Under the pieces are notes generated by a model. The model ran no database searches, was not told where the DNA came from, and saw only the letters and a program-made list of their open reading frames with translations. DNA of 64,000 bases from Psococerastis gibbosa (taxonomy: Eukaryota; Arthropoda; Insecta; Psocodea; Psocidae), in assembly GCA_963971405.1 (NCBI GenBank), contig OZ020489.1, positions 20,920,290 through 20,984,289 of the forward strand, in the 5' to 3' direction. Below, piece after piece: positions 14,553 through 64,000 of the stretch (positions are counted from its first letter, which is position 1; each line of letters begins with the position of its first letter). The translations under genes and the position numbers were made by a program.

Positions 14553-14840
14553 CATTCGGCTCATTATTTAAGTTTGATAGAAATAGGATTGGGCTGACTG
14601 TCCGTCGCATTTTTTTTCCTTTCGGCCGAGTCTAGAACCTTCCGGTTCTTATTATCCCTGCCCTAAGTCGTAGCCCACCCCTATGTCATTCGGCTCATTT
14701 CAGTTTGATAGAAATTGGATTGGGCTGACTGTCCGTCGCATTTTTTTTTTTTCGGTCGAGTCTAGAACCTTCCGGTTCTTATTATCCCTGTCTTAAGTAA
14801 TAGCCCAGCCCTATGTCATTTGACTCATTTTAGTTTGCTG
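14553..14840 (+). repeat. Tandem repeat, two ~134-bp units plus partial
   Basis: CATTCGGCTCATT..TTTGATAGAAAT..GGATTGGGCTGACTGTCCG..TAGAACCTTCCGGTTCTTAT repeats at 14553 and 14687, with a partial third start at about 14818. Confidence 0.8.
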
Positions 14841-15058
14841 AAATTCTTTTTTTCATGCACTCAGTATGCTTTTGTATACAATACTGTGTATACATAGTTA
14901 GACTGGCACCCGCTAAGGTCTTGACGGAAGTAAGCTATGTTGATGAAAGAAATGTGATCCTCATGTCAACAAAATGTCGATTCCATCCAGTTGCTGGCAA
15001 ACGTGGCCTTAAGAGGATGTGCATCGTAGATATTGGTCACCCCTGGATTATTTCGTTG

Positions 15059-29000: not shown

Positions 29001-32000
29001 AAAAGTCATTATTTACTTACTGTATTTGGTTATCTCTTACCAACAAAACCATACGACGTCTCTTCATTGTTCATAAAATATTTCTTAACTATAAGGCCTG
29101 GTACACCGTATGCGCACCCACACAGGAAGTTAACTCAGTTACACCTCCAACCACCTGAAGCCACCAAAATAGGTAAAGCCAATTGCCTGTAAAACAGGGC
29201 AAAAACGAAGTACTCAACGGATCCAGACCTTCAATGAGAGCTCAAGCACATCAGAAGGGACCTTCAAGCTCATGGCTTTCTCAAGAAGATAGTTGATAAA
29301 TTAATGAAACCAAAAATTTCACGCCCACCAACCCAACCACTAGAAAAGCCCAAGGCCACCGTCTTCCTGCCACGTATATCTGGTTTCTCCAAAAAGAGTA
29401 GGAAGATCGGTCAAAAAGTCAATATCTGAACAGCAGAAAGAGTTCAGGAACACAAACGGTGCGTTAGACTAGGAGAAACAGAGAAATCCCATTTAGCAGA
29501 CCATGCCTGGACTGAAGACCATAAAATCAAATGGGACAAAGCAAGGGGCCATTCTTAGGGAGACAGGTTTCAAGCAGAGGAAGCTGAAAGAAGCAATAGT
29601 CATGGCCCTGAATACTGATCCCATAAGCCAGCCCAGCATGACATTTGACACGATAGCTATTGGTTAGGGAAAAAGTGAACTTCAAGAAGTTTCAAACTAG
29701 TATACTCTAGCGAGAGCCGTGGGTGAGTGGTTAGAGAGCTTGCGTTTCAATCGGGGGAACGGTGTTTCGAATCCTCTAGATCGGATTTACTCAATAATTC
29801 AGAGTGGAATATTAGAGCGATGAGTCAATCGTCTAGAAACCAGTAGTCCGAATCAGGACGAAGCCATCAGTCCTTAGGACTAAGCCTGATGGTTAAATAA
29901 CTTTCAGACTAATCTAATGACTATTAACACAGCAGTCAATGTAAGTCCAAATAACCCTTTCTTAAATAATATTACAATATTGCCATTAACCTGTAACAAT
30001 AGATTACCCGAGTAGGGGGTTCCCCTCGCCACGCCCAGAACAACGCCAAAAATATTCGTAAGTGCGTTCAGAAATTGACTTTTTTGCACCAACCTATCAC
30101 CAGACCATTTGTTCCCACGACTAAAATCGTCTGTGACTTACCGATCGTCCGTGTGTACTGGGCCTAATAGACGATCATAGAAATTAAATTAACTATAATG
30201 GCCATGACTGAAAATGACATAATATCCCTTACGAGGAACCCGTTAGTAATAAGCGAAAACTATCAAAGATAAGTACCAACTTAAAAAACATCGAAGTCTT
30301 ATACATTGAAGCATAACAAATTGTGTACCTGATGGATCCGGTTCCTGCTTGTCTAAGCTCCTCACGCAGCGAAATTTCGTACATATCTTGTGTAGGATCT
30401 CTAGCCGCCATATTGATAACTGTCTGCAGCCCCGTGATGGGGCTGGCTAGTGCCTACGTGATTATTCTCATGTTGACGTAACGTGCTTTTGTGCAGTGCA
30501 TCACCGTCGCAGTCTCTCCGAGGACGTGGCCAACGCGATATTTCCGCGGGGGACCGCTCCCAGCGATAAGGCACGGCGGCACCAACTGCTGGCCCACAAA
30601 GTGTCGAGTGCCGTGCTCGCCAATCCCAAGTACATCGGCGAGATCATGGTTCAGGTGGATCCCCACTACAAACCAAGGTATGACTTATTTACTCAGAGTT
30701 TGGGGGCTTGGTAAAATGGCCCACCTGATGTAAGGAATCTCGAGCATTATTATTTATCCCGGCTTCGGTCGCAAGGTGGTAGCGTGCTTGTGAGAGTCTT
30801 AATACACCATGCGATTGGAGACGTGTCGTAACTCAACACAGTTAGTGAGGCGACTGAAGAGGTCAATCGGATACATTCATTAAATTGTATGTATGCGATT
30901 AACCTTCTTTTTAAAGTAAATTTTTAGTTCATAACCATACGATTGTGAATTATATATATTATTTTTCATATTTTCAGATCAGGAGAGAAAGGAAGTCGCT
31001 CCAATCCATTTTTAACTTTGTCTCAATTCCGTGGAGTTAAGAAGATTGTTGGCTCAGAGCATGTACGCTTTTTTTACCTATTTTACCCCCTCTCCCCTCA
31101 CTTTGCCTATTTACTTTTACTTGTTTTTTTTTAATTCACTCTGCCCAATACGATGGAGGGTAGTCGTACTGAATCTCTGTATGTTGAGCAGGTTAACCCT
31201 CAACTACGCAGCGTACGTACTGAGATGATCTTTGTTTGAGTTGTACTCGTAAGGGTATTCACGATGTGTTCTAATCCGTTGAGCTGTACCTTTTATCGGA
31301 GATGATGATCTACGTCTGTACATCGTTAGCCTATACATTTTTTTCTTCTCCAGCACATAATATATCATAACATTAAAAAAGTAACATTTAATCGTGAGTG
31401 TTTTTTGTAAACGCCGATTGACTCTGTGACTTTTACTCGTGGATTTTTCAGGTGGCAAGAACAGCAGCCGAGCTGTTCTCATCGTGTTTCGAGCTGCCGT
31501 CCCCGTCGTATGGTCTGACGCCGCCTTGCAGCCCGACGGAGCCCTCCCCCACCACGCCCCCCGCGTCCACATCGTTACCATGTTCCCCCACCATGATACG
31601 GCGGAGGAAGCTCGTCAAGTCACGGACGGTGCCGCTCATGCGCCGCTCTGCCGGCACAGAGGACAGCACCACGACGCCGGCCTTCAGGCGGCGCGGCTCC
31701 TGTGAGAGCGGCTTTTTTAGCTCTGTTGGTGACGACTATAACCTGTTAGGTAAATAGAGTTTTGTGTAATAATACACATAATTCATTATCTACTGCTATG
31801 ATTATTTATTTATAGCTAATCTTGAATTAGTTTTGGAACCTAATTTAACGGAAAACTGTATACTAGTTACATAGTTACAAAGACCAGCTGTTGTGCGTTG
31901 AAAGCCTGAGATAAATATGCATTTATTATTTTCGCATCTGGATCGCTTTGGGCAAGAGTGGTATTAAACGATTAGCTTTATTTCTGTCTTAATTTTGAAT

Positions 32001-35590: not shown

Positions 35591-38482
35591 TATTTCAGAA
35601 GTTATGAGTATTATATACCTTAGGGAAGCTTAAGGGAATGTGACGTACTAACACTCATGCAACTTTTGTCTGAGTGTGGCAATGATAGGTAAGCCTTGCA
35701 TTCCCCATTGCTCGCTTCGATGGTCATAGCGCATGCAATGAAGTAGCAAAATGTTGTTTCCCAGTGTAAGCGGGTGGCTCTCGCCATAATCCCAATACAG
35801 TCAAAATTAAGATATAAACATGGCCAGAGACCAAAGGTCAAGTGCGCAACTTACTGTGTCTGAATTGTGTTGTCTGCCCTGCTTGTAGAATGGTTCATTT
35901 GTTTACATTTCCTGATACTTTCATTTTTTTAAGTTTGCAACCCTAAAACCTGGAAACATTTCCCCCTTCATTTGGCCGGCATCGGCTATATCATCGGCTT
36001 ATGGTTAGACGTAATCTATTTTATTTTATTATTATCATCAAGGGGTGGGTAAACGGCTGTGGGGCAAGTGCTGCTGTGTCACCTGTGAAACAATACCAAT
36101 TCTTCGAATAACGAATGGGTTGTGAAGATGCAAGGGTGGGCCATACGTCCATTAAATGATTTACAAAGAGTAGTAAGTAATATTAATTCCGCAATATTTT
36201 ATACTCGTAGATGTATTAAAATTATATTAATCGATGAGTTGCGCAAAATGCAGAATCCAGTTTCATAAAATGTTTTTCATTTTATCGTCGTATTCAGATC
36301 ACGGTCACTTGGCTGGTGGCTGACTCCAGATAGGCCTTTCTGGATGCCTGCATTATCCACTCGGCATTGAATGCAAGAAGTCGTGACGTAAAGAGTTTCA
36401 CTAATTCTCCTGCGTTTCACTGTTGTATTTCCCATATTTAGTTATTGATAAACACGTTAAATACTTGCAATACTGGGCTCATTATTTATGAAACTTAAGG
36501 GATAATTAAACAAAATAAGGCATTTTAGTTGATATCCTAATTAATTTTACTCGCGTGTCACGTCTTCTTGTATTTGTATGGAATCCCTTATTGTGTTGTA
36601 GTACGTGAGGTGCACGCGGATTTAGCAGGCGCCATGCAGGAAAAACCATGTGGAACAAGGGTTGTTGTTTTCTACTTGTATCTGCGTTATTGTTGCCTTG
36701 TTCTGCATTTTTTTTCAACCATGTCAATTCATGGGCAGTAACTCATGGTTTTTGGGACTATTTCGTAAAAACCCATGAGTTAGGCCATTATGTCTTTTCC
36801 ATGGTCTTATTTATTACATTTACAAGTATGTGAAGCTACATTTGTCAGTAGTCGCAAATGAATTGAAAGAATGTTTTGTCTTCTGCTAGTCTTCCCATCG
36901 TTGAATTTTGTGTTTGGCTGAAGAGTCAAGTCAGTTTTGTCTTCCGAAGGCAACATTTAGGACAAGATGACAACTCAAATAATGTAGGTAATTGAGAGGC
37001 ATACAATATAGTACCGCACTTTTCTCAGAATATGTCATTTCTTGTGTATTGTCAATTGATATGTCATTGGCTCCAAAAAAACTTGTGAACCAAAATAAGA
37101 CAGTCGGTTATATCACTATAGTTTTCTGGGCCATGTTTTAGTTTTACTATATGGCGTTAACATTTCTTTTTATTATGAAGGCTAACAAGTACGTTCATTA
37201 GGTACCTAGTTTTGTTGGGTTGAAACGAATTATCCCAAAAGAATTTTCCTTATGTGCCTAAAACTAAAACTGAGACTTGAAAGTCTTGATGGAAGTTGTT
37301 AGCAATGCTGCTCCTGAAGGAAAAACTAGCTCACTTTTGTATATTACTTAGAAGGAAAAAGTTGTTTTATATAACATAGCCTAAACGATCTCTATTGCAA
37401 TGTTATAAACAATCAAAATGCTACCTAAAGAACTTTCACTCTATGTAGCCGAGGTGTGGTTCCTATCTCTTTTACTGTTTGTTAAATTTTATTCTGACTT
37501 CTATTTCTTCATTCATTTTATACCTTTTTATTATTTAGTCAGCTACGTTGTTGATGATAGTACTTACAACATTATCAGTTGTGTGTTGCAAACCATTCCA
37601 TCAGCATGTTTATCATTATTATTGGGAGCTTTGAAAATGCAATGCTAATTTGCAGTGTATCAATCATTTGTTTTATACAGCTCCGTCATTGTTTTCTAGT
37701 GTAATTTGATTAGAAAGTTGATTTTAATTTATATTTACTTTTACTCAGTTAACATTTTTAGTTGGCATTATTTTCACAACTATGCTTTCTTAATTTCCTA
37801 CAGTACCTTAACGAGATTGTGTTGAAATAATGATATTTATGGTTGTCTTTCTAGATTTTTTTAATTCATTATAAATAAAGTTCAGTTGACTTGTCAATAT
37901 TTCAATTTGGGCAGCTCTTCTGATTTGGAAATGAACTGATGTTTTTAAAACAGTGTATAATAAAATTGGGTATAACAACTGTATTGGGATTAATATTGTA
38001 TGTAATATATTAATTAAATACACCGTGAGTGTTAGCTGAGTGGCTTTTCTCTAATGCATACTCTTAGGGAAGTAATTTGGGAATTTAGACTTTATTTTTT
38101 GACATGGTGGGTGGCAATTATTAGGTACTAAACTTACACACGGTTCACTCGCCCGGTCATTTTTCATGGCAATTTAACGAAGTTTTTTTACGGTGAAATG
38201 GGTAAGTGACTTTCAGTTTATACATTCGCTTTGGTGACAGGAGCTGAAGGTGATTTCGCCTGGCTGCCAACGCGAACGTTTGGATTAAGTAAATGAGTAC
38301 GGTTTTTTTATTCCTTCCCACGCCTACCAAAACTATGTCACTTACTATTTATATCAAAACGTAGAGGAATATTTTTTCTGAGGTATGTGACCTCTTTCAT
38401 GGCTCTACGATCACTATTTTCAGTGACACTCCTTTGCTAAAATTCACATAGACGGAATGAAGCTTAAAATCGATATAAGCTA
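35591..38482. other. Convergent intergenic gap between TESK and AGL
   Basis: Between the two poly(A) signals. Short frames (for example 37418-37648) are low complexity. No splice-consistent exon or clear repeat was seen except a family L-like fragment near 38340. Confidence 0.45.
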
Positions 38483-38488
38483 TTTATT
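38483..38488 (-). terminator. AGL: Poly(A) signal downstream of the AGL extension
   Basis: Minus strand reads ttAATAAAtag, starting 37 nt after the extension stop and ~550 nt after the canonical AGL stop. No AATAAA occurs between the two stops, so the transcript probably includes the whole extension. Confidence 0.65.
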
Positions 38489-38525
38489 AACAACATGATT
38501 AAAACTTATAACAGGAATTAAAATA

Positions 38526-39041
38526 TCAAACAAAATAAATAATATAGAATGTAAGAATAGCTAAGAGGAAGAAAGCTAAAACGTATCCTATGGTCAATCT
38601 CATTAATTTGTTGTGCTCTGTGATTGTCAATTGTTTTCTTGGTGCATTTGGAAATCGTATTACTGCATTCTGTAACTCTATAGAACTTGGACTTCTGTCT
38701 CTGTTACTTAATTTGCGGATAAGCATTAGAGGTTCTAGTAAAAGAAGACTTTGCTGCTCTCGTGTAAAAGAATCGTCAGTTTCGTTGGCTATGCTTTCAT
38801 AGAGTTCATCAATTCCTAATCGAAAATCAGTGCCACCCGTGTTGTCAATACTATTTTCAGGTTCCTTTGTTACGTCAAAGGAAACTCGTCGCAGATTGGT
38901 GTCAAAATGAAAGGCAGCAAATGTCGGTCGTCTTGAGGACTTGGCGATACCACTCCTTAGGGGTTTCGCGGGGGAAGATGTTACAATGTCCTTGGGGCGT
39001 AAGGGGTGTATCAGATAGAAATGGGGAGGGTACAGCCAGTG
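38526..39041 (-). CDS. In-frame 171-codon open extension after the AGL stop, with C-terminal TM helix
   Basis: I checked every codon: there is no stop in the AGL frame between the TGA at 39042 and the TGA at 38526. The segment reads like protein, with RRPTFAAFHFDTNLRRVSFD, DFRLGIDELYESIANETDD and IELQNAVIRFPNAPRKQL, and ends in a hydrophobic helix (GYVLAFFLLAILTFYIIYF) one residue before the stop. The first in-frame ATG is only at 38726, so the N-terminal two thirds cannot start from its own AUG. Options: readthrough of TGA-C; an alternative phase-0 acceptor (cttacgccccaag|gac, exon 38526-38990) that replaces the normal tail; or the last exon of another minus-strand gene. I recognise no homologue. 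Confidence 0.5.
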   Translation of the reverse strand, partial: HWLYPPHFYLIHPLRPKDIVTSSPAKPLRSGIAKSSRRPTFAAFHFDTNLRRVSFDVTKEPENSIDNTGGTDFRLGIDELYESIANETDDSFTREQQSLLLLEPLMLIRKLSNRDRSPSSIELQNAVIRFPNAPRKQLTITEHNKLMRLTIGYVLAFFLLAILTFYIIYFV

Positions 39042-39110
39042 TCAGTAAGACGATGAGTCGGACGGTAGCTGGTCGAGTGAGGACTCCAAAATCTGGAGGT
39101 CATACATGAC
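39042..39110 (-). CDS. AGL: AGL terminal exon, stop TGA
   Basis: A strong acceptor (T-rich tract then gtag) and phase 0 give [20 protein letters not shown] ending SY and TGA. The preceding exon ends ILE, so the join reads ILE-VMYDL, equivalent to human ILE-TLYDL at the C-terminus, plus a 17-residue tail. The stop context is TAC TGA CAC, and the frame continues open downstream (see the extension entry). Confidence 0.85.
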   Translation of the reverse strand, partial: VMYDLQILESSLDQLPSDSSSY

Positions 39111-42100
39111 CTACAAAAAAATAAGCTACGATAATTATTTTAAGATCAGTATTGGGGCGTTAAGCTCACAGAAAAACTAAAGGGGAGATGCGACATAAAA
39201 ATTAGCATAGATTAAATAATTAATAAATACATTTCTTCTTAGATTACCCCATCATTGCATATAGTCCGGAGGCTTACGGGCAAAAATGGCTCCAACTTGC
39301 ATTTTTTGCGAAGCAAATTCACTTGGAGAGATGATAGACATCATTCTGTACAGACTCAGATGTCAAGCCGCTCCCAAGGCGGGTTTTTCAAGTCGCGCGC
39401 ACACTTTAAGTTAAAAAAAAAACCATCGGCTTTAACAACATCGGCTTCGATGGCAAGGTGGTAGCATGCTAGTAATTGTGCGAGTCTCTACGCGCCATGC
39501 GATCGGAGACGTGTCGTAACTCAGCACAAGTATTAATTTACTCATTGAGGCGACTGAAGAGGTCATCGGATACAGTCATTAAATTGTTTGAATGCTATTT
39601 TTTTTTCTTTAATTAAAGTCGCGCGCACACACCGATATCTTATCGATATTTCTCATCACCTATGGCGCCCATTCCACATACGTACATCGTCAATGAAAAT
39701 TATGAAATTGAAGGACATTTCAATTTTACTCTATGCCATTGTTAAAATTGATCATAGAGTAAAAATCACAAACAATGAAACAAACAATCTAAAATTAAAA
39801 AATGGCGTCATGGGATATGACAAGTACAACTATTTTAATTGATTTCTCTAAAAAGAAAGCATTTCTGTATAAAAATTATAATAAGGTTTAAATAATAAGG
39901 CGACAAAGAAACAAATGCAAACAAATTTCAAAAATTTGGCGCATGCGCTTCAATTGAAAATTGTCAATTTTTGAAAAAACATATGGAATGGTCCCCATCC
40001 ATGAGAAATTGAAATGTCCTTCAATTTCATAATTTTCATTGACGTTGTACGTATGTGGAATGGGCGCCTATGCAATATCGGTCGCTCTTTTTTTTCATGT
40101 AATACTCAATGAAATTCTTAATAATAAGTTTAAACAAAACGTCATTTATATTTATGAGTTTTGTGAATAAAAATAATAACTAACGAAGTCGACGTCGACT
40201 GCTCATTTTTTATGTTTTCGTGAATGAATTGACGCGAAATATACTTTGATAACAAAATATGGGCCAATGTAACTTGGAGTGGCTCCACATCTTAATCTGT
40301 ACAGGATGATGTCGCGTAATTTGTTTTATTAAAAAATGCAAGCTGGACCCCTACAATACACACATACCAAAAGTATAAAGTGCGCTAGCCAGTTCGGCTC
40401 TCACTGGCAGTGTAGAAAGCTTCTCCTATGAGATGATTTTTAAGCAATTTCGGGAAGTTATTAGTATTTCTCGTCGCTCTCAGTTAATTTGTAAGCGTTC
40501 GGAAAAAGTAGTGTAGTGTTGGATACAATCGCTCACACTGGCTGTGTGCGGCACTGGCCTTACAAGGTCCCCCGTTGTACGTGCTATACCAATTTCGATT
40601 ATATTTCTACTACACCTCAGCTCTTAAAATATGTAATATACATCTGTGGATGTAAAGACTTGGGGCTGTCATGATTTTTGAAGCCATCAAGTGGGAGCGA
40701 CATCTGTTATGATGTACTAGTTTTAGCAAACTAAACGAGCTATATTTTCGTTGCACCTCTTGGTCTATTAGGATAGTTAGCTAGTTACTTACCTCAAGAA
40801 TGCATCCCATGCTCCAGGCTTGGGTTCTACAGCTGTCACCGCAGTAAGCTCCGTCTTTATTGGTTAATTCCGGTAATCCCCGCCATGGAGATGTCAGTAA
40901 CTCCTGGTAGTGATGAGATAAATACGATCTAGAAATGTAAAACAAAAATTAATAATTTTTTGGCATATTTACCTGTATGTACTAGCGCATTTGTACTACA
41001 GTACCTACTAAGGCGGGGTTTCCACATACGTCAATGGTCAATGGTAAATATGGTTTTGACGTGGTAGCAGACATTTTTAGTATGTCGTTAATGTTTGCTA
41101 AAACGTCAATACGGTACCACATTTACCATTGACGTATGTGGAAACTCCGCCTAATCAATCTTTATAGTTGATTTCATCAATAACCTTAAGTATAAATTTG
41201 AAAAACTTGCCTAGTTTCCGCAACAGTTTGTTTCAAAAGTTCATCACCTCCAACAATCTTCGCGAAGTGAAGTCGAGCTCTGAGAAAAAACCCAACAGGC
41301 CACACCCATTCCTAAAATTAAAACGTCACATTATTTGAATCAGTCAATATTCCACAGATTTAAATAGCGACACGACAATAGTTTACACGTCTGAAAAGTT
41401 GTGGAGGTCAGAATATCTACCCGCTTGTGGTCAGCATTGGCCGCAGCCTCCCCTAAAGGTGATATAAGCTACCCCCATATCATCAACACCAGTGTTATTT
41501 AGGATATTCAATGTCCATGGTGTAAGTATACATTATTATGATGTTATTATTGGACCGTGAACCGATATGGATAAGTTCATGGTGGGGCCAGCAGAACAGC
41601 TTGTCTTCTATGCCTATTATGGCTGGATAGGCTGCGTTCGTTAGGCTAACGTTTTACATTTTCAGCTAGAGGAGGGCCCGGGTCAAGAATGAGATAGACA
41701 GCTGCTAAGCTGAGCTACACCGTACCACCCCACCTGCCTCACCAACCCGAATGGAAAAACTGGACTTTGCGGGATTCGAACCCACCATCTTACACCATAG
41801 TCCTGCTCTAAACCCTCTAAGTTTGGATATAATGAGGAGGTTACCTATTTAACCTAAGTTAGTTTAATGTCTGTGAAAATTATATACACCATATACAATA
41901 CTGCTATTTATTAAATAAAAACAGACACCAAGAGTCCAAGACTACCATCACAATCATTACTTATTTACTACGAACTACGGAGTACTCCTGGAGGCTGACA
42001 CTAACACTCTGACGTGGACAAGTATCCAAGTAATAACTATTAAGCAATAACTCCTAACTACAAACTGCTACCTCTAAGGCTCTAACGACTAGTCCTCCGA

Positions 42101-48100: not shown

Positions 48101-51100
48101 TTTTAAGGGTCGCGCATGGCGTAAAGTATTCCATACCCATGGGGCCATGCATTTCAAGGGGTGGTAGACAGAAAGGAACCCTGAGATTTTATATTACTTA
48201 CCGGTCCCTGATGGTAATTCCAGCCATGTGCAACAGCTGTGTCATTTGAGTCATTGTCGTTATGGTAGTCACCGCGGTAGTTCCAGTCGGACGGGTCCAG
48301 AGTCTTCATGCCCAGGGGTCCTAGGAGAATTGGTCCAGCTTTCTCAAGAGCAGTCCAAGCGTGCGCAGGGTCCACCATTTCGGGCGCCTTCAATGCACGA
48401 GAACATATATTAAGATATTTATGAGAACAGCCCATCTGCAGCCCGATCATGGCGATTTAGTATTATTATAATACCGGGGTTTATTTTTTAATGCCGCAGT
48501 AGTAGTAAGGTGTCAGGTAACCGTGTTAAAATATGCGCGGGAAATTCAAATTAATAAATTATTGGAATACAAGAGAATGGTTGCATTGTTTTATAATCGA
48601 AGGAATCGAGGATTAATTTATCAGTTTTAATTTCACGGACTGGCGGGGTGTTACTAAGCAGGCCAAAGCCCATCAAGGCCTGTAGAGCCAGAAGCAGTAG
48701 TAGTAGTATGGTTGGACACAGTCCCAGGCCACGGTGTGGGCCCATAGGACAGCGGACCTCCTGATTATAGTGGATTCCGAACCACTTGGGAAACATAGTC
48801 AAGTCACACGATTAGTTCGGAGGTGACCAGGACAAGTCCTACCATGTTTCCCTACCGGCACTGTGCACACTACCAAGTTATCTGCATCTTTGAACCTGCT
48901 CTGGTCCGCTGGATTCAACTTGGTAAGGCGGCCGGCAGCCAGAAGCAGTGCGATGATAAAAAATTAAAATAATCATGTATATGAATAGCATAGCAAGCTT
49001 TTACTGTTGTAAATATATCTGGTGATAACCCCGAGCAACTACAACAGAAATCAAAGAACATAAGTAAGCTTATCATCATCTCATCTGTAATAAACTCATG
49101 ACTCAAAACCCATGACAGATTTATGAACGTTTCCACTCCTTCCTTTCCATCTACTCCTGACCATTTAGCACCTCCTCCGTTTCCAGTCCGGTCTCCTTTA
49201 ATTGTCCTTAACCTGGTTTTCCACTTCATTGGTCCCCTTCACGTAACCTCTTCCTCCGTCCATAGTAGCATTTTATGTATATTTGTCTAGTTTCTAAACG
49301 GGTTCAAAAACATCTTACCACAACTAATGCGATTGGGAAGTTACAGCGCAGTTGATAGTCTGCCCATTGCTGTGAAGCTCCCACAGAGTCCTTGTATATC
49401 CCACGACGGTTAACTAGGTCAGGTCGCTGCTCACCATTCTCGGGAGTCTCAGGTATCCAGAATTGTCGCTCGAAATTGGCCCCAATCAAATCCTCCCATT
49501 CCTTCAATGTCCATGATATTACTTTGCCTGGAAAACGAAACCAATAGTATAATAGATTAGGAGTCGTTCCGACAATCTGATGGAAACTCAATTATCTCTT
49601 CGGAAAATTAATATAAATTTTAAAATATATCCCACCTTGCTAACATATTTTATATATCATTGCTGTTAATTTGCCTGTTTTTAAGAATTAGGCCACATAT
49701 AATAAACATTGAACAAGTTAACCACCCTTTAAGAGTGAACAGCCCGTAGGAAATTTTGGCAATTCCAAATTTGGTACCACAGAGCAAAAAGAGAATAATT
49801 TTTTAGAATAGTTCAATTTTTGTCAAGTTGTCAGCACACATTGGGAGATCCTTGAGGGTCGGCAGCAGGTATACGAGCGAAGGGTGTGAGTGATGACTCA
49901 TCATCTGATATATTTACGACCCTCTATGCCTCAATAACAGCCGAGTTCCTATATTCCTTCATCCAGCCAAAAAGCAGTGGCGTGCCGTATCTTCCAGGCC
50001 GCAGTTATAGCAGTGGCGTCTCCTTACATTTTGTATTCTTTATGAGAATACAAGCCGTAGAATGGTGTTTTGACATATGTATAAACACATGTGAAGCATG
50101 TTCCAATAAAATTATGATTTATGATTGCATTAAATGTCTACCATAATTAAAAAGGCAATGATATGGGATGTAAATAAATGTATTGACTTACAATTTTGAT
50201 ATGTACAGTCACGTATGAGAAAAAGTTTTTGCTTTCCTGTTTGTTCGTAATATATACAGGGTGTTCCAGACCACCCGGACACCCCCTATATCTCGGTTAT
50301 TACGAGGAATTTTGAAATGCGGTAAAAATCTACGATAACAAAGTCAAGATTGAACTACCTTATGGTGCAATCAAATGTTTTTTTCGGGGAGTCCGAAAGG
50401 GGAGTTTCAGGGGGTCATAGGTGGTATCTCGGAATTTTCAAATGCAAAGGTATAACGTATTGCATATCAAATGAAAGCCCTGTGAGGGATATCCTTTTCA
50501 TCCAGAACCCTTAGGACTCTTTTAAGGAGTATAGCCTCAAAGAATTGGCGCATTGTGGCCCCATTGTTTTTTAATCTACTCAGTGAGTCTAATAATCTGC
50601 TGTTGTGTGCTACAGCCTTTCCGGATACCAAAAGGTTCTGGACGCAGGATATCCTTTTCATCCAGAACCTTGAGGACTCTTTTAAGGATTATAGCCCCCC
50701 CCTCAAAAATTTGGGAATTTACATCAATCCCGGGAAATAGCAGAGCTCAAAGCAGGCATTAACAGTGTACAGCCCTTAGGGAAATTGGAAATTAAATTTA
50801 ACATTTTATTTATTATTTAATTAACTAAGCAAGTTCATATAAGCCTAGGAAGACACTGCACAGTCTACCAGGCTGAGGTATGTGCCATATCGCAGTGCGC
50901 CCTTGAAAATATAGCGGCAGGGAATTCCAACCGCAACATTTATATTTTCACAGATAGCCAAGCTGCATTGAAAGCACTGGAATCATCTCGTACGAAATCA
51001 AAAATCCTACGAGAATGCAAACTCAACCTGCAAAGGCTGGCCAAGCACAACAACGTAACAGTCGCTTGGGTGCCGGGTCATTCAGGCCATGCAGGGAATG

Positions 51101-57100: not shown

Positions 57101-60100
57101 AAATCGTTAATATTATACCCCACATCTTTACCTTTGTTATCATGGTAGATATGTAATAAAGGCATTAATTAAACATGCTTAAAAGGCCCTATTGCTTTAG
57201 GTCCAAACACCATTCTACGGCCTGTACACTCTTAATATAAGGATAAAGCAGCAATACCAACCATTACGGTCGAAGCGCTCGACTGTGCCATACGGGTAGA
57301 CACCTCTCACGTAGAGGTCATTAAGATCTCGCAGTACCGCTTTCGATAGAGAAATTATTTCGACAGCAGAGCCATCTCGAGGTGTCGCAGGCTTCCCTTT
57401 GTTTCCAGCCTTTTCGCTAGAGCCCATTTTGTCCATCCATGTTCCGCAGTTATAAAGATTTCCACCATAAACAAAACCTGCCAATAATAAATCGAAAAAA
57501 CTTATAATCAGCGCCTGTTCTAACTCTATAAAAATATTAGGGGGATTCACTCTGTTGATAGAACGTAGAAATAGAAAAATCGAAAAATAGCTCAGAGTGA
57601 GGATACCTCCGTACAACCGTAGAAATAGAGAAAGTTTTTAAGGCGCATTCTGTGGAGTAAAAATTGAAACTGTATGCTACAAGGAACTACCAACAGGTGT
57701 GGGCGCTACGTTCTTGTCTTTTTGTCAGTTTGTTTTTGTTTTTAGCCGTGTAATTTGTTTTTGATTTTAGCAGGTGTTTTTTTTACTTTAAGTTTAAACT
57801 TATTTTTCATTACCTACCTACCTATGCCTAAATTAGGAAATACGTTGAAAGCCATCAACTTCCCCGCGGGAAAATGCAATGCAATGATGTGCGAGAATTT
57901 TGAAGAGGAGGAAGAAATACTAAGTCAAGCCATCGACGATATTTCTGTGGTCATGTCAATACGGTAGGCCTATAGCGTACGCTTTTGCATTGGGTCTGTC
58001 CCTAAATCTAAGGAGTGGTGGACCAACGTGCTTCCGAGCCACGAGTCCACGACGAAATGTGCGGTTTAACATTTTCATGAGAGTTTTGCATTGGCCAATT
58101 GAAGAGGAAAGAAGAGAAATTATTTCTACCGTAGAAAAACTGCCATAAGGACATGTGTTAATCGTGTCTATCTACGGCTTTCTACTACTTGGGGAATCAA
58201 AAACAAAGCAAACGGTCGACCATATTTGTTGTTTTTATTGCTCACATTTAATTATTTAATTTTAAAAATGAGTTGTACAAGACAAATAAATGACAAAAAA
58301 CAGAAGGAAACATGTAGCAAGAGGTGGACTGCGGAAGCTGTTAATAAGTTCCTCGAGATATTAATAGCCAAAGTACAAGAAACTTAATTTGGAGGTAAGT
58401 TGCGTGTGTTTATATCAAAATTAAATATGCTGCTTACGTTATTTGCTGTTGATACCCATCTGAAAATCGCCGAAACATACTAGGAATTAGGATTACAATT
58501 GACTGTTATTAACACGTAAGTTTTACGCTTAAAAAAGCCGCAGACACAACTACTTCGTTCCTTTGAAGTACGTAGGTACTGTACTTATGCCTCATGTTTT
58601 GCATTTGTTCGGGTATTTAGGTAAATTATTCCTTAGGGCTATTCTGCAGGAAATTTGGAGTTACTGTACATTTGAATACGGCGTTCAGTAATTTTGCTAC
58701 GAATAATAATATTGGTGTGGTGCATGGATTTTATATTATTGAATGCAGTTAGGTCTACACATCACCGGTTTTTCTTTCTGTTTCAGAAACCAACCGCCCA
58801 GACAACAACAAAAAGAATGACGCCAACGACCCAATCAGAAACGAGAGCGCCTGCGCACCGAACCATACCTGCACCAGTCAGTCAGTCAGTTGCTACGATA
58901 CCTCCGCGATACAACCTTAGAAGTATAGGTGTACCCCACCGAAGATGTCGTACGCAGTTGTTGACGAAACGTTTGGAAGCCTACTTTGAAATCGACCACG
59001 GCCTATTCGCCCGGATTCTTGTGTCCCCTTATTAGACTCCAACCGTGAAAGCCTTCGTTATTATATTGAATTCAAAATGTGTCGTTCGATACAATTTAAG
59101 TGATATTTTATTATTCTATTGTCAAATCAAAAAAACATTGAACCATATTTGCTTTGTATATAGGCCTTAATGCATTAGTTATTTAATTTGCTTACATTAG
59201 TTATGATACTATTTATACGAATTGTTAATGCTGCTGGCGTAAGTCAATCATTGAAAGAGAACGAACGGTCTAGCTATAAAACACTTATAATTGACAGAGG
59301 CTGCATCATAGCTTTAAAACTGTTTCCATGAGCGCCTTCCTTTTACTGGTACCGGCTGTATTATCTTGTACATCTTGCGCTTTGATGGCATAATTTTGTT
59401 TGCGTGAGTAGGAACTCTCCACAACCGTCTAAGTAGCCAATACATAAAGGCAGCTCGTGAATTTTTGCATTGACGATTTCTCTTCTTTCCTCTTCAATTG
59501 GCCAATGCAAAACTCTCATGAAAATGTTAAACCGCACATTTCGTCGTGGACTCGTGGCTCGGAAGCACGTTGGTCCACCACTCCTTAGATTTAGGGACAG
59601 ACCCAATGCAAAAGCGTACGCTATAGGCCTACCGTATTGACATGACCACAGAAATATCGTCGATGGCTTGACTTAGTATTTCTTCCTCCTCTTCAAAATT
59701 CTCGCACATCATTGCATTGCATTTTTCCGCGAGGAAGTTGATGGCTTTCAACGTATTTCCTAATTTAGGCATAGGTAGGTAGGTAATGAAAAATAAGTTT
59801 AAACTTAAAGTGAAAAAAACACCTGCTAAAATCAAAAACAAATTACACGGCTAAAAACAAAAACAAACTGACAAAAAGACAAGAACGTAGCGCCCACACC
59901 TGTTGGTAGTTCCTTGTAGTATACAATTTCAATTTTTACCTCACAGAATGCGCCTTAAAAACTTTCTCTATTTCTACCGTTGACGGAGGTATCCTCACTC
60001 TGAGCTTTTTTTTAGATTTTTCTATTCCCTTTTCTATCAACAGAGTGAATCCCCCTATTATATTTCTACTCCCCACCGGCAACGTAAATTTCCAACTCGA

Positions 60101-63100
60101 TTTAAGCTTCTGACAATTTCTTAGACTCGATGTGTGCCGTCATCACCATCACCTCCTTCAATCTTTCCAAGCCCTTCACTTCTGACCAATTTGCACTTCC
60201 TCCGCCTCTAGTTCCACCCTCCTGAGATCGCTCTTAATTTGGCCTCTGCAGAGACTCCTTCGTTTTACTCTCCTCCTCATACTCGTAATAAGGGGCTAAC
60301 TGATCCAAGGAAATAAGGTACGTGATAATTGTGACAATCGAAACTTAACATACTTACCAGGCTAATCAAATAATGTGACCACCACTGAGTAGGTACCATA
60401 GCTTATTATTTTCTTTTTTCACTAAGCAATAAGGGTGGGTGCCTCACCTGTATCCAGGTTGACTGCGACGTTATTATTGAATCCCGGGTCTTGCATGTGA
60501 GCGTCAATTTGCTGGCCAGCGTTGCGTTCCCGAAAGGAAAGCCCTTGAAAATGTACTGAAAGGGCTTCGTGGATCACGTCGGTGAGAGCCATGTCCTAGA
60601 ATCAAGACAATTGCATTTAAAGCTACTTTCTTCTTTCACCGCTATCAGATGCCGCGCCCTGCGTCTGTCAATAGAGTGATGATAGGTTGTTATTCGGGCT
60701 TTGGATTGCTTGGCATGTCTGTAAGTAGGCGGCACCCATGACACCATTGGACCATAGATTCGAAGTAACCAGGTCTAAATGGCACAGTTATAGCCAGTTG
60801 CACGCCTGAATTTTGAGGCAAAAGCAGTTCTCTTTTCCGCGGATGCGCCGATAAAGCAGCCCCCCTCGTTATTTCCACGTTCTGACTTAGTTTTAATTTT
60901 GTGGCACAGAACTCACCACGATGCCAGGCGCAAGGGAGGGGGAGTCATCTCTGGGATAAATTCGTGACACGGGGTCTTGTAGGATGGTCGCACCATTGGG
61001 CACCAGCTTGACGTACTCGACAATGCTGTAAAGCCACCACCACACGGCGTCTCTGCAGTTGTAACGGGCGTTGACACCGCGATCCAAAAGGTTCGGGATC
61101 AGGCCATGGCGGAGACAAGCTGCGTAGCCCAATATGTGGTATCTGTAACAATCCACTAGCTAGATGCTATTGACGAAAAAAACACTACGAGGGACTTGGT
61201 TTAACAATTTTTAATACAATTTTACACGAATGACGGGCATTACCTACTTATAAACTATCCCTCCCATGTACTTGACTGGACAGTCATAAACCTAAGATAA
61301 TCAGGCTTTACAAATTCACCTTTGCTTCACAAAATAGCTATTCTCTGGTTATAGTTGTCAAAATCTTGAACTGCGGGAAAGATGTATATTTCCCAGGTTT
61401 GGCCAGCAATACGGCTAATATAAAATCTGCTAAAAACCAAGGTAGAAAGATATTTTCTGCTTATTTGGGGTCATTCAATTGAATTTTGCAAATTATTGGA
61501 CTTTGTCTGTTTGCAAATAAGCGTTTATTTATTTATTTATAATAAGATATAACGCTACCTAGCTTCCTGAAAACGTCCCGTTAATAGGAACATTCCGCGG
61601 AGGGCAATGAAAGTGTCTCTGCCCCAAGATCTCGTGTAGCCGGTGGTGAAGTGTGGCAGCCCAGCACTCATGGTAACATCAGCTTCGTCCTTCCCGTTGG
61701 GCGAGTGTATTAAGGACGGAGAGAAGGCGGGCAGAGGTGCCGAAGGAACAACCCCTGTGAACTGGATGGAGCCCAGTGCTAAACTGCGAACGAGACTAGA
61801 TCCTTCACGAACAAACCTGGAGACAATCAAGGCAGATGAAACAATCATTGCTTAAAGCTGCAAATGGACGATCCAATTTGGCTGCACAACTCAATTGTAG
61901 AGCTTGGTCTATGCGATTTCTGTCGGATGTAGCGACACTGATATTGTTTTGTTTTATCTTCTGCTATGTTATTATAATTATTCATATAACAATGGGTCAT
62001 AAGTGCATTATGGCCTAAGACCTGATTTATGGAAAACTTAACAAAACCTTAACCGTAATCATCATATCCCAACCCCAAAGTTAACACTATATTTAGCTTA
62101 GGAAGCATTCACGAGCGGCCGTATAGCAATCCATAAAAAATTTCTAGGTCTTAACTTTCTTAAAGCCACGGTTATGGATAGGGTTATGTTAAGTTTACTA
62201 TAAATCAGGCCTAAAGACTGCCTGAAACAATAACAGCGCGGGTTAAACCTTTACGGACATATTGATTACTGAATAACAGCTACTTACTCAGACATCAGGA
62301 AGACGGATCTCGATATTAGGACACTGTAGACTCCAGTGATAATGGCGTCAAAGTATCTAGGAATCAAATATCGTGGGATTGTGCTAACACTATCAAATTT
62401 ACTTGCAAGCCATTGCCCAAGACCCCTGGTTCCTTTTACTATCTTGAGACGGTTGCTAGTATATTCTGAAAAAATAAAACAAGCTATTCTAGTCAGTCCG
62501 TCAATTTCCTCTGTCTGTCCACTTTTATTTTTAACGGAGCCTCCTTTTTTACTTAAAATTTAGTAAATAGTTATTTTGCAATACAATATAGGGCAGCAGC
62601 GATGACAAGATATATTGTGGCACTCAAGCAGGTTCGGTTATTACAATTTCAATTAAATATCTTAAAAATTGTTGAACATTTACCCATCATCCAGTCGCCT
62701 TGTCGTAGGTTATTACATAGAGGATGACCCAAGTCATTATTAGGTCGAAGGTCATTTAGAATGGACATAAAACCTGAAAATAAAATTTAATCGTGAGTTC
62801 TGAAACAATTATATTTTACCAAAGTTGCTTAGAGTTAGTCAAGTTAAATTGTAAAGTGCGACCACGAACTGAAAGAAACTACATGTTTCATCGTTTTCAT
62901 ACTGTTATTGAAGAACCGGTGCAAGAGAACCCGTACATTTTATCCTATTATTAATTAGTCCGAAACGATTGTCAACAATATTATTTTTTATGTTTTTTAG
63001 TTATTTTTTGCTCCAGAACCAAACTAACAAAGGGGGAAGGGACATAGTGGGTTTTGGTTTACATTAATAACGACTATAATACATACTATTGATTTAAAAC

Positions 63101-64000
63101 AAAATCGTAGGAGCAGTTTGTTAGAAAATATTTTTTTAATTGTTGTTAGGTGGTAAATGCACCCAAAATCGAAACAATGATAGGATTTTTGTGACCCTAC
63201 TTTTATGAATTAGGCACATAGCCCATTTCAACAAAATCAATCGAGTATTTTGCCCACTAATGGGTTAATATTAAGAGTGGGCCGAAAGGCCCAAAATTCG
63301 CCCATATGGAAAATAAAGACAATTTTCTTTCTTTCTTTCTTTCTAATCTATTCACAAGCAGACTGAAAGATATTTAGTAAAAACCACCTTTTTTGGTTCC
63401 CGTCTCAAGAATGTATAAATCCTTTTATAATTCCGGAATCAAAAATGACGACATCACAAAGCTTTCCTTATACTAACTTATAGATAAGAAAGCAAAAATT
63501 TATTTCTTTATTGGTTAGAATTTTTTAGTGCTTTATATTATGGAACGAATATTGCCAGTAGGCTACTGTAGTTAGGCGCAAAGTCTGACATGGTAGCAGA
63601 CATTAAAGACAGTCTTTAATGTCTGCTACCACGTCAATATCACTATCACTATCACAAACGAGGTCGGTGGACTTTGTGCCTTAATACTATTGTAGATCTA
63701 GGGGCAGGAACGATTGACTGTGAGGTTTAGAGTAATTGTTAGGTGACCATTGAAATCTTTGGATAGCCCCCCTACAAATCGAAGAACCGTGGCGTATTGA
63801 AGGCAACTTCATAATACCTTGGAGGCCACAATAAACGAATGGGCCAAAATTTGGGACGTGGTAACATCCTGTGCCTTGCTCCTTGTCCTCTTGGTCACAG
63901 CGGTACAGAGCGACGTTCAGGTCAGATAACGACATTTCTGCCACGACGTCCAATAGAGCCTGCTCCGGGTTCGAGTTTAAAAGGTCGCGACCTAATTGAC
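39042..64000 (-). CDS. AGL: Glycogen debranching enzyme, C-terminal (amylo-alpha-1,6-glucosidase) half, 5'-partial
   Basis: Exons in minus-strand order: 64000-63818 (continues outside), 62773-62684, 62465-62288, 61816-61559, 61142-60917, 60595-60448, 57477-57262, 49527-49319, 48387-48202, 41311-41211, 40928-40793, 39110-39042. Every junction is phase-consistent, and the translated order matches human AGL from the SRGDLNVVLYRCDQ region to its last residues (ILETLYDL). The cytosolic enzyme removes the alpha-1,6-linked glucose left after transferase action on glycogen; the 4-alpha-glucanotransferase half is outside the window. Conserved blocks seen: [80 protein letters not shown] and [12 protein letters not shown]. 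One intron is GC-AG. The AGL intron at 49528-57261 carries a MULE-YqaJ gene on the same strand. Confidence 0.95.
39442..39592 (+). repeat. SINE-like repeat family F, copy 2
   Basis: Same block order as 30761-30890, with a short insertion in the middle. Confidence 0.65.
39664..40067. mobile_element. Family C foldback MITE in an AGL intron
   Basis: Ends GGCGCCCATTCCACATACGT and the exact inverse, flanked by TAT on each side. Long inner palindromic arms (GTCAATGAAAATTATGAAAT). Confidence 0.8.
40793..40928 (-). CDS. AGL: AGL exon (penultimate)
   Basis: Acceptor acatttctag, donor GAG|GTAAGT. It encodes [33 protein letters not shown] and [12 protein letters not shown], matching human SPWKGLPELTNENA...CETQAWSIATILE. 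Confidence 0.96.
41010..41154. mobile_element. Family C short MITE in an AGL intron
   Basis: Ends AAGGCGGGGTTTCCACATACG and CGTATGTGGAAACTCCGCCT. It carries the GACGTGGTAGCAGACATTTT core. Confidence 0.7.
41211..41311 (-). CDS. AGL: AGL exon ([12 protein letters not shown]) with GC donor
   Basis: Acceptor aattttag. It encodes [20 protein letters not shown] and [13 protein letters not shown]. The only splice point that keeps the frame is ACTAG|GCAAGT, a non-canonical GC donor whose other positions match the donor consensus perfectly. Confidence 0.95.
42277..42384 (+). repeat. ~100-bp direct repeat, copy 1
   Basis: TTTCATTACTGATTAGAGCC..GCGGGGTATTGGTA, nearly identical to 47172-47270 apart from a short insertion (gcagtg). 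Confidence 0.75.
42419..42812. mobile_element. MITE with 38-bp inverted ends
   Basis: AAGGCTGAGTGTTCAAAATG..AACAAGAAAT is exactly inverted as ATTTCTTGTTTATAAAACAT..GAACACTCAGCCTT, with one change in the arm. Confidence 0.75.
44628..45016. mobile_element. MITE-like repeat with CTAGTGGCGTAGCC ends
   Basis: Left CTAGTGGCGTAGCCAAGG and right GGCTACGCCATTGACTCTAG are imperfect inverted ends; the interior is poly-C rich. Confidence 0.5.
45829..46180 (+). repeat. Minisatellite, about four ~95-bp units
   Basis: Each unit contains CTGGAG..GGGGTCTCCCCCGGAGAAAA followed by GGCCCAAATTAGTGAGGTTT and TTTACGCAT. The unit length is not a constant multiple of 3, so coding is unlikely. Confidence 0.75.
46455..46635. 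mobile_element. Pogo/Tigger-like MITE with TA duplication
   Basis: Ends CAGTAGAATCCGTTTATTAA and the inverse GAACCGGATTCTACTG, flanked by TA on both sides. The CAGTAGAA start and TA target match Tc1/mariner-pogo MITEs. Confidence 0.75.
47172..47270 (+). repeat. ~100-bp direct repeat, copy 2
   Basis: Matches 42277-42384. The two copies bracket a 4.9-kb repeat-rich block. Confidence 0.75.
47815..47845 (+). ncRNA. Weak hammerhead-like motif
   Basis: TTGACGA, a short stem GGC/GCC, then GAAACCGGTC. The first core base is T instead of C, so it is probably a decayed motif. Confidence 0.2.
48202..48387 (-). CDS. AGL: AGL exon ([12 protein letters not shown])
   Basis: Acceptor gcattgaag, donor CCG|GTAAGT. 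It encodes [39 protein letters not shown] and [10 protein letters not shown], matching human [18 protein letters not shown]...FNYHQGP. Confidence 0.96.
48437..48610. repeat. Family D fragment
   Basis: CAGCCCGATCATGGCGATTT then an ACCGGGGTTTATTTTTTAA block as in 12901-13244; the other end is missing. Confidence 0.6.
48743..48945. repeat. Repeat family G, copy 2
   Basis: GTGGATTCCGAACCACTTGG..AAGTCACACGATTAGTTCGG..GCACACTACCAAG..AACTTGGTAAGGC. Confidence 0.55.
49319..49527 (-). CDS. AGL: AGL exon ([11 protein letters not shown])
   Basis: Acceptor gttttccag, donor GTG|GTAAGA. It encodes [20 protein letters not shown] and [20 protein letters not shown], then [10 protein letters not shown]. It is separated from the preceding exon by a 7.7-kb, repeat-filled intron. 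Confidence 0.95.
50488..50697 (+). repeat. ~50-bp direct duplication
   Basis: GGATATCCTTTTCATCCAGAACC..AGGACTCTTTTAAGGA.TATAGCC occurs at 50488 and 50647. Confidence 0.7.
50840..51600 (+). pseudogene. Non-LTR retrotransposon RNase H and C-terminal zinc-knuckle, 5'-truncated
   Basis: Open frame encoding [20 protein letters not shown], then [14 protein letters not shown] (RNase H Asp), [20 protein letters not shown] (RNase H His/Asp) and [20 protein letters not shown] (Cys/His knuckle), ending SKWED-TGA. This layout fits RNase H-bearing LINE clades. It lacks reverse transcriptase and endonuclease, so it is a dead copy despite the intact 3' frame. Confidence 0.85.
50840..51689 (+). mobile_element. 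5'-truncated LINE insertion with poly(A) and target-site duplications
   Basis: Flanked by GCAAGTTCATA at 50829-50839 and 51690-51700, an 11-bp duplication that may extend by two As. It starts inside the RNase H region and ends in a run of about 21 As. It is inserted in a copy of repeat family B. Sharp duplications and a long A tail indicate a recent insertion. Confidence 0.85.
51825..52483 (-). repeat. Repeat family A, copy 7 (5'-truncated)
   Basis: Lacks the AGAACCGGTCCGAG end and starts at the cgcaatgc block; it ends AAATTGGAAAGCA. It lies directly downstream of the MULE-YqaJ stop. Confidence 0.8.
52592..55145 (-). CDS. MULE-YqaJ exon 2 (Mutator-like and nuclease domains)
   Basis: Starts after acceptor ctttttttgtag and continues [20 protein letters not shown] before the internal Met at 55054. 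It runs uninterrupted to TAA at 52592. All four YqaJ-type nuclease motifs are present. Confidence 0.85.
52592..56643 (-). CDS. Mutator-like DDE transposase fused to YqaJ-type nuclease, two exons, 886 aa
   Basis: Exon 1 56643-56537 (M plus a basic segment, [20 protein letters not shown]); exon 2 55145-52592. Donor ACG|GTTAGT and acceptor ttttttgtag join in phase to give 886 aa. Acidic N-terminal repeats (NQSIGADEP twice) precede a Mutator-like domain with [30 protein letters not shown]276 ([12 protein letters not shown]) and D369 ([10 protein letters not shown]). The C-terminal ~250 residues carry a YqaJ-type PD-(D/E)XK nuclease: [13 protein letters not shown]752 in AASPDGL, E763-x-K765 in LLEIKC, and YQIQRQL. 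Such fusions are common among arthropod proteins annotated as uncharacterised. The gene lies in an AGL intron on the same strand. No element ends were found. It is intact, hence recent or domesticated. Confidence 0.85.
55571..55826. mobile_element. MITE in the MULE-YqaJ intron
   Basis: GGTATTGTCATCCGCCATGT and the inverse ..GTGGCGGATGACAATACC; the inverted match continues about 20 bp further with differences. Confidence 0.65.
56045..56371. mobile_element. Nested family C MITEs inside the MULE-YqaJ intron
   Basis: Outer arms GGCGGCTATTCCAC.. (56045) and ..AGCCGCC (to about 56369). An inner perfect foldback at 56219-56360 starts GTGCCCATTCCACATACGTA and closes with TACGTATGTGGAATACCCGCC. Confidence 0.65.
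56537..56643 (-). CDS. MULE-YqaJ exon 1 (basic N-terminus)
   Basis: 35 codons plus 2 nt, from ATG at 56643 to donor GTTAGT at 56536. The encoded peptide is very basic and ends HKKKEME. The Arg codon is completed by the first base of exon 2. An alternative is that translation begins at an ATG in exon 2 (55054). Confidence 0.7.
57262..57477 (-). CDS. AGL: AGL exon ([16 protein letters not shown])
   Basis: Acceptor ttattggcag. It encodes [39 protein letters not shown] and [13 protein letters not shown]. The only donor that keeps phase with the next exon is AATG|GTTGGT at 57261, which is weak. The end of a long-TIR transposon lies about 60 nt upstream of the acceptor. Confidence 0.93.
57539..58120 (+). 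repeat. Left ~580-bp inverted arm of the 2.5-kb element
   Basis: Mirror of 59476-60056 with scattered mismatches only (for example FPAGK versus FLAEK in the shared peptide). Divergence begins right after gaagagaaat. Confidence 0.8.
58121..59475. other. Interior of the 2.5-kb long-TIR element
   Basis: AT-rich. The only notable frame (58694-59035, +) encodes a low-complexity [20 protein letters not shown] segment with no recognisable domain. No intact transposase. Confidence 0.5.
59476..60056 (-). repeat. Right ~580-bp inverted arm of the 2.5-kb element
   Basis: Inverted copy of 57539-58120. It retains the longer reading frame [20 protein letters not shown], which runs past the arm into the interior. 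Confidence 0.8.
60448..60595 (-). CDS. AGL: AGL exon
   Basis: Acceptor attctag, donor ACAG|GTGAGG. It encodes [34 protein letters not shown] and [14 protein letters not shown], matching human [20 protein letters not shown]. Confidence 0.95.
60917..61142 (-). CDS. AGL: AGL exon ([10 protein letters not shown] motif)
   Basis: Acceptor gattgttacag, donor GTG|GTGAGT. It encodes [20 protein letters not shown] then [19 protein letters not shown] and [18 protein letters not shown], near-identical in pattern to human AGL. Confidence 0.97.
61559..61816 (-). CDS. AGL: AGL exon (WGRDTF catalytic-domain motif)
   Basis: Acceptor ttgtctccag, donor CTAG|GTAGCG. It encodes [20 protein letters not shown] and later [20 protein letters not shown], then [15 protein letters not shown]. 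The [11 protein letters not shown] block is a hallmark of the glucosidase domain. Confidence 0.97.
62288..62465 (-). CDS. AGL: AGL exon
   Basis: Acceptor ttttttcag, donor GA|GTAAGT. It encodes [31 protein letters not shown] and [18 protein letters not shown], aligning with human DYVSNRL...IPRYLIPCYFDAVIVGAY. Confidence 0.95.
62684..62773 (-). CDS. AGL: AGL exon
   Basis: Acceptor attttcag, donor ATGG|GTAAAT. It encodes [20 protein letters not shown] then [10 protein letters not shown], matching human [20 protein letters not shown]. Confidence 0.95.
62912..63494 (-). repeat. Repeat family A, copy 8 (old, with inserted (TTTC)n repeat)
   Basis: A strongly diverged copy: AGAACCGGTGCAAGAGAAC.. 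to ..CACAAAGCTTTCCTTATAC..AAAGCA. A family K fragment interrupts it at 63266-63345. Confidence 0.65.
63266..63345 (+). repeat. Repeat family K, copy 2 inside family A copy 8
   Basis: TTCGCCCATATGGAAAATAAAG followed by ACAATTTTC and (TTTC)n. It interrupts the family A block cgagta.tttgcc / ..agacagac. Confidence 0.5.
63575..63640. repeat. Family C core fragment
   Basis: GGTAGCAGACATTAAAGACA directly inverted as TGTCTTTAATGTCTGCTACC: a near-perfect short palindrome. Confidence 0.55.
63818..64000 (-). CDS. AGL: AGL exon (partial at window edge)
   Basis: Open from the window edge. It encodes [19 protein letters not shown] then [16 protein letters not shown] and [11 protein letters not shown], ending in phase 1 at donor CAAG|GTATTA. 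It corresponds to human DLNVVLYRCDQEE...FGSLVYCGLQG. Confidence 0.93.

Follow-up and report, generated by a model that had tools for sequence, protein, structure and literature searches.

A possible second, tail-anchored C-terminus in the terminal exon of an insect glycogen debranching enzyme gene

In a 64,000-nt stretch of Psococerastis gibbosa DNA (hereafter the window), the last coding exon of AGL, which encodes glycogen debranching enzyme, continues past its stop codon into an open reading frame whose far end is predicted to form a tail-anchor-like helix. Judged from its sequence, this frame is likelier than not to be used for coding, and the reading that we favour, tentatively, is that the AGL terminal exon carries a second, alternative C-terminus that would be reached by 3' splicing from the donor at 40793 to an acceptor at 38990. 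Most transcripts would join 40793 to 39110 and encode the soluble debranching enzyme, and some would join the same phase-0 donor to 38990, by way of a pyrimidine-rich stretch that holds the first stop. The alternative product would end ILE-DIVTSSPAK...TFYIIYFV, with its last 22 residues swapped for a 154-residue tail. Behind the enzyme would come a probably disordered linker of some 120 residues, and a hydrophobic helix would form the C-terminus.

Results

The AGL gene and its ordinary C-terminus

By their domain content, the minus-strand exons between the window edge and 40793 are those of AGL: matches to the Pfam domains hGDE_central and GDE_C follow one another in order on exons of a single strand (Table 1). 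The window edge truncates the gene, whose N-terminal half lies outside. The best match for these exons among PDB sequences was 8zeq, a 1532-residue glycogen debranching enzyme chain. The penultimate coding exon, whose acceptor we infer at 40928 (score 3.6), ends in a strong phase-0 donor (GAG/GTAAGT, score 7.7).

The conserved end of the enzyme is present. The alignment reaches residue 1528 of the 1532 in 8zeq; its last V comes from the first codon of the intron, and the following exon also starts with V. On the minus strand the acceptor tttttttgtag/GTCATGTATGACCTC makes the last AGL exon begin at 39110; this exon adds VMYDL, which fits the end of the 8zeq chain, and then 17 extra residues up to a TGA at 39044-39042. 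Because of this end alignment and the VMYDL supplied by the 39110 exon, we read that TGA as the ordinary AGL stop.

Table 1. Positions in the window of the AGL coding pieces and of the features of the open frame that follows them
Feature	Position	Strand	Basis and remarks
AGL exon piece, hGDE_central match	63807..63971	-	Pfam PF14702, profile 157-214; match bounds, not exon bounds
AGL exon piece	62305..62466	-	Aligned to PDB 8zeq 968-1022; match bounds
AGL exon piece	61552..61824	-	PDB 8zeq 1026-1123 and GDE_C 11-51; match bounds
AGL exon pieces, GDE_C 50-123	60533..61144	-	Pfam PF06202; single hmmscan stretch, probably more than one exon
AGL exon piece, GDE_C 132-179	57314..57478	-	Pfam PF06202, E 9e-13
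AGL exon piece, GDE_C 188-246	49295..49516	-	Pfam PF06202
AGL exon piece, GDE_C 239-295	48199..48387	-	Pfam PF06202
AGL exon piece	41228..41314	-	Aligned to PDB 8zeq 1449-1477; match bounds
Penultimate AGL coding exon	40793..40928	-	GDE_C 318-367; PDB 8zeq 1480-1528
Last canonical AGL coding segment, 22 residues (VMYDL...SSSY) and TGA	39042..39110	-	Sequence; acceptor score 3.5
First 17 codons of the open frame, interpreted as pyrimidine tract of an alternative acceptor	38991..39041	-	
Proposed alternative AGL tail, 154 codons and TGA, phase 0 with the 40793 donor	38526..38990	-	
RVSF in LRRVSFDV, resembling the PP1-docking RVxF motif	38877..38888	-	Sequence
Predicted C-terminal helix, tail-anchor-like, with basic flank	38529..38621	-	KD19, AlphaFold2
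AATAAA polyadenylation signal	38483..38488	-	Sequence
Example peptide of the predicted tail: VSFDVTKEPENSIDNTGGTDFR			

An open frame past the AGL stop

As a first-pass annotation of this DNA had described, the TGA that ends the AGL terminal exon is followed by C, and the same frame then stays open for 171 codons (39041-38526, minus strand), with no AUG over roughly the first 105 of them (the first in-frame M is codon 106). The AATAAA that it had placed 37 nt past the second stop indeed starts at 38488; this is the sole AATAAA in 39120-38400, it sits after both stops, and neither AATAAA nor ATTAAA occurs between the two. The other two frames close at 9 and 45 codons after the AGL stop, and the only other-frame AUGs between that stop and codon 106 are at 38809 and 38800.

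Several other readings of the same DNA were set aside. An intronless gene that starts at the codon-106 AUG is not preferred, since the most protein-like stretch (38876-38724) lies almost entirely upstream of it. An other-frame reading of 39101-38906 (the LAVPSPFL... peptide), whose frame shuts after 45 codons, and an antisense ORF at 38768-39109 (plus strand) had no Pfam match, and no Rfam family was found in 38300-41300.

Length of the frame against chance

An open run of this length had been called unlikely by chance, which holds for the stretch taken alone and is weak once the run is treated as the best of the whole window. When sequences were simulated with the composition of this 631-nt stretch itself (20,000 per Markov order), a 171-codon run in frame 0 arose in 0.0001 of them at order 1 and in 0.00005 at order 2. 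At the noncoding stop density (0.060), the six frames of the window should together yield about 0.2 runs of at least 171 codons. A 34.4-kb sample of noncoding DNA had runs of up to 119 codons; outside this sample, runs of 148 (1514-1957) and 136 codons (31207-31614), both on the minus strand, were without Pfam match; of these two, only the 148-codon one was scanned separately.

Protein-likeness, periodicity and codon usage

The earlier remark that the frame reads like protein stands for its middle (about codons 40-120) and fails for codons 1-17, which resemble a pyrimidine tract. Over codons 18-145, a boundary picked post hoc, frame 0 was the most protein-like of the six (7.4, against -2.6 to -22.1 for the others), and its amino-acid likeness was equalled by 6 of 1068 noncoding stretches of 128 codons (with stops skipped; one 2.5-kb region is counted twice in this sample). 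In 40-codon pieces taken from codons 1, 21, 41, 61, 81, 101 and 121, likeness ran -3.9, 0.4, 4.6, 7.3, 2.7, -0.6 and -1.6. Three reverse frames outscored frame 0 over codons 1-49, and the likeness per residue of the whole ORF ranked 26th among 94 ORFs of at least 80 codons. Purines held codon position 1 in 12% of codons 1-17 versus 62% of codons 18-145.

Period-3 power was low over the first third of the frame (0.14-0.59 in windows starting from 39060 to 39000) and stood at 1.07-2.23 in windows starting from 38970 to 38700, the noncoding 95% point being 1.54. The codon-position chi-square of the frame was equalled by 17 of 428 noncoding windows. Codon usage cannot decide the matter because the training set is too small (555 AGL and kinase codons; on leaving one out, six of nine real exons scored best in their true frame): with this training all six frames were negative, frame 0 the least so (-11.6 versus -19.0 to -37.5), and with transposon training a reverse frame topped frame 0 (-1.4 versus -8.0).

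Protein-likeness reaches 9 bits in 11 minus-strand segments above 38400. One lies in the 171-codon ORF, five fall on AGL matches (upper bounds 63998, 60595, 57445, 49501 and 48396), one on a transposase, and four elsewhere (60233-60105, 49196-49131 and the G-rich 45047-44964 and 44679-44575); these four fall outside every Pfam match of the three-frame scans. The piece 60595-60425 alone also lacked a Pfam match, though it overlaps the end of the GDE_C 50-123 stretch. The segment at 60105-60233 (minus strand; 43 codons, 11.5 bits) lies between AGL exons.

The predicted tail

The tail-anchor-like end noted in the first-pass annotation is borne out by prediction, with a single hydrophobic C-terminal helix and none elsewhere in the tail. 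KD19 hydropathy peaks at 2.49 in the last 30 residues, versus 0.32 in codons 1-145. Run with no alignment, AlphaFold2 modelled the 154-residue tail mostly at low confidence (mean pLDDT 56.3), and its only confident element was a helix at residues 124-153 of the 154, where the last three pLDDT blocks were 93, 97 and 95. The terminal hydrophobicity of the frame was equalled by none of 365 noncoding ORF ends (a sample that counts the same 2.5-kb region twice), and a stretch of KD at least 2.49 anywhere in the run was found in 6 of 334 noncoding runs in a non-overlapping sample. Basic and acidic residues are equally numerous in codons 18-145 (18 each). The loose RVxF pattern occurred in 14.9% of shuffles of the tail; a tight form, [RK][RK][VI][ST]F, defined post hoc, occurred in 0.36%.

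Searches with the tail returned no Pfam family, no glycogen-binding domain and no homologue among PDB sequences. It had no homologue in viral or prokaryote genome contigs either, and these misses say little, since such contigs are the wrong places to look for an animal gene. Weak Pfam matches of the last 44-69 residues to Orf78/ac78 (E 0.051 and 0.097), DUF6327 and Gemini_mov (0.14 each), all below the curated cut-offs, were taken as chance matches of the hydrophobic helix.

A candidate acceptor at 38990 and the donors available to it

The first-pass annotation had offered stop-codon readthrough or an alternative phase-0 acceptor as routes into the frame. The first base of the alternative exon would be 38990 (AG at 38992-38991), in agreement with the junction figure given there. 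Between the two routes the sequence favours the acceptor: codons 1-17 (which read HWLYPPHFYLIHPLRPK) look like a pyrimidine tract, and the AG gap, the pyrimidine content and a branch-like motif all fit 38990; readthrough fares less well, given the same 17 codons. The 78 nt before the AG are free of AG (gaps of at least 77 make up 1.8% of minus-strand gaps), and the 50 nt before 38990 are 70% pyrimidine, a level reached by 1.1% of minus-strand AGs; over the last 20 nt before the acceptor, pyrimidines make up 65% at 38990 versus 70% at 39110. A branch-like CTGAC overlaps the TGA, its A at 39042, about 50 nt from the AG, which is longer than usual for a branch point; a second branch-like motif, CTGAT, has its A at 39011.

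The score of the 38990 acceptor is modest (0.7, reached by 10.9% of minus-strand AGs; 39110 scores 3.5), and it is the top-scoring in-frame acceptor from 38990 down to 38700, those at 38939, 38864, 38756 and 38753 scoring -8.9, -0.6, -4.3 and 0.5. A coding start somewhat downstream of 38990 is possible, since codons 18-49 are not clearly protein-like.

Joined to 38990, the 40793 donor gives phase 0 and 154 open codons. The gene, the frame, the phases and the acceptor-like features can be read directly from the DNA, and it is from these that we infer use of the acceptor. Between 41200 and 39000, 40793 (7.7) is the only donor that scores at least 4.5; the donor at 40973 scores 4.4, with an open phase-0 run of 3 codons. 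Within the last intron of AGL (40792-39111), only 40405 (2.1) and 39633 (2.3) score at least 2, with 7 and 9 phase-0 open codons, respectively. The whole 64-kb minus strand holds 31 donors of at least 4.5, and the best scores in six other AGL donor zones were -0.3, 1.1, 0.2, 4.3, 7.2 and 3.0. Having the sole strong donor is therefore a weak argument, as only one of those six zones has a donor of at least 4.5.

The last AGL intron also contains a 63-nt inverted repeat (39664-39726 and 40006-40068; 98% complementary, 279 nt apart) that looks like a young foldback or MITE element. A 33-nt inverted repeat (41011-41043 and 41120-41152; 94% complementary, 76 nt apart) lies between AGL exons and is similar in part (73%) to the element ends at 39660-39711 and 40037-40076.

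Other features of the window

Two mobile-element-like reading frames lie in AGL introns. An 875-codon ORF at 52595-55219 (minus strand) has Mutator-like transposase and YqaJ nuclease domains on one protein, and an ORF at 50821-51597, on the plus strand and so opposite to AGL, matches RNase H and, more weakly (below the cut-off), zf-RVT, and is probably a piece of a retrotransposon. A PTPLA match opposite the RNase H ORF (E 0.001) and a DctQ match (E 0.0036), both below the cut-off, were set aside. Protein kinase exons at 20376-20534 and 23509-23619 (plus strand) belong to a gene convergent with AGL, which we take to be of the testis-specific-kinase type (TESK) from its appearance. Opposite the kinase exons runs an uninterrupted 868-codon ORF (25333-27936, minus strand) with no Pfam match at E 0.01, probably a mobile-element protein. 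A 130-bp tandem repeat (2.2 copies, 90% matches) is found at 14566-14845.

Discussion

Alternative explanations for the open frame

The main sceptical rival is that the frame is an unused chance opening in the AGL 3'UTR, and that any product would be marked for degradation by its hydrophobic end; the available text of PMC12817085 reports that hydrophobic extensions at the C-terminus favour BAG6-mediated degradation. The expectation of about 0.2 runs of at least 171 codons per window, the weak codon-usage and period-3 signals, the finding of a comparably hydrophobic stretch (KD at least 2.49) in 6 of 334 noncoding runs, and the absence of a homologue in Pfam, PDB sequences and viral or prokaryote contigs all speak for such an accident. 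Set against them, the frame is longer, at 171 codons, than anything in the 34.4-kb noncoding sample (119 at most); 6 of 1068 noncoding counterparts equalled its protein-likeness and none of 365 its terminal hydrophobicity; and simulations of the local composition give a frame-0 run of this length at a rate of about 1e-4 or below. On balance we think this explanation unlikely, if a serious one. Should it be right, the locus would carry a caution, namely that a 3'UTR can give rise to an in-frame opening of 171 codons whose end resembles a membrane segment. Were the frame instead the terminal exon of a different gene, one for a small tail-anchored protein with upstream exons in AGL introns or beyond and with 38990 or another acceptor, the tail-anchoring would be less of an oddity: we know of no tail-anchored AGL, and many small proteins are tail-anchored. 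An upstream exon is needed, because the first 105 codons are AUG-less and acceptor-like features precede the tail, and a weak donor elsewhere could serve, as most AGL donors score below 4.5. However, the only donors of at least 2 in the last intron, 40405 and 39633, follow open phase-0 runs of 7 and 9 codons, phase 0 being the one that this check covered, and just one of the 11 protein-like segments (60105-60233) is neither AGL, transposase, G-rich nor the 171-codon ORF itself. Such a gene would also need to be interleaved with AGL and to share its polyadenylation signal, and its agreement in frame would be a coincidence expected 1 time in 3. We regard it as distinctly improbable.

Functional readthrough of the AGL stop would add all 171 residues, the hydrophobic helix included, to a fraction of the enzyme. 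TGA followed by C, as here, is a leaky stop context, and the RNA immediately past the stop has a somewhat better predicted fold than shuffled versions of it (z -1.87; 8 of 200 at least as good). The available text of PMC5100048 names stop-codon context as a determinant of readthrough, estimates functional readthrough at no fewer than 5% of stops in Anopheles gambiae and 6% in Drosophila melanogaster (at least, in both cases), and describes it as abundant in most insects tested; with hundreds of readthrough stops estimated in insects, it is a live rival. However, readthrough would have to translate codons 1-17, which are unlike protein, and we consider it very doubtful here and prefer alternative 3' splicing. 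Among the matches listed in open-licence PMC text, titles and abstract openings described no AGL form with a membrane helix, and that text held nothing pairing CG9485 with readthrough.

What alternative splicing of the AGL terminal exon would mean

Under alternative 3' splicing, competition between acceptors would pick the C-terminus of the enzyme, soluble from 39110 or tail-anchored from 38990. If the tail is translated and the predicted helix inserts, the helix would anchor the enzyme on a membrane as a tail-anchored protein; the ER is our guess, because no charged residues follow the helix. The anchored form would then hold debranching activity, together with bound glycogen, at a membrane. 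That the alternative product would lose VMYDL counts against this proposal. A bolder version, in which the alternatively spliced enzyme both anchors glycogen at the membrane and docks PP1 through the RRVSF of its tail, strikes us as a long shot; if true, it would act in the manner of the muscle subunit GM (PPP1R3A), with debranching enzyme as its building material, and would bring debranching and dephosphorylation together on one membrane-bound protein.

Comparison with known systems

Debranching enzyme is a soluble, glycogen-bound cytosolic enzyme. The gene described here resembles that of 8zeq in its hGDE_central and GDE_C exons, which come in the same order, and in a C-terminal ILE-VMYDL that fits; unlike the 8zeq chain, which stops four residues past the aligned block, it continues for 17 more residues and possibly, in the alternative form, for a 154-residue tail. 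The available text of PMC7648618 likewise places the enzyme in the cytosol. Insect and crustacean genes with functional readthrough resemble this locus, where a second ORF stays open in frame 0 beyond a TGA-C stop; in contrast, the 171-codon region is longer than most of theirs, as far as the available text on them goes, and an acceptor better explains its first 17 codons.

The PP1 subunit PPP1R3A (GM) has a membrane anchor that is C-terminal. The product proposed here would, like PPP1R3A, combine a protein that binds glycogen with an RVxF-type motif (RRVSF) and a part that binds membranes; unlike in PPP1R3A, the AGL tail has no glycogen-binding domain, so the enzyme would have to supply glycogen binding, and the motif may be due to chance. 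PPP1R3A is described in the available text of PMC3240831 as a glycogen-targeting subunit of PP1 with a sarcoplasmic-reticulum binding domain. STBD1, in turn, is presented in the available text of PMC7648618 as an ER transmembrane protein that holds glycogen and is reported to bind debranching enzyme. STBD1 is thus a separate protein that recruits the enzyme, whereas here the enzyme itself would bear the anchor. In mammals, on the available text of both sources, the holding of debranching activity at a membrane has been linked to such separate proteins, STBD1 and PPP1R3A (PMC7648618, PMC3240831); an alternatively spliced, tail-anchored debranching enzyme, if real, would give an animal a direct means of locating glycogen breakdown at a membrane.
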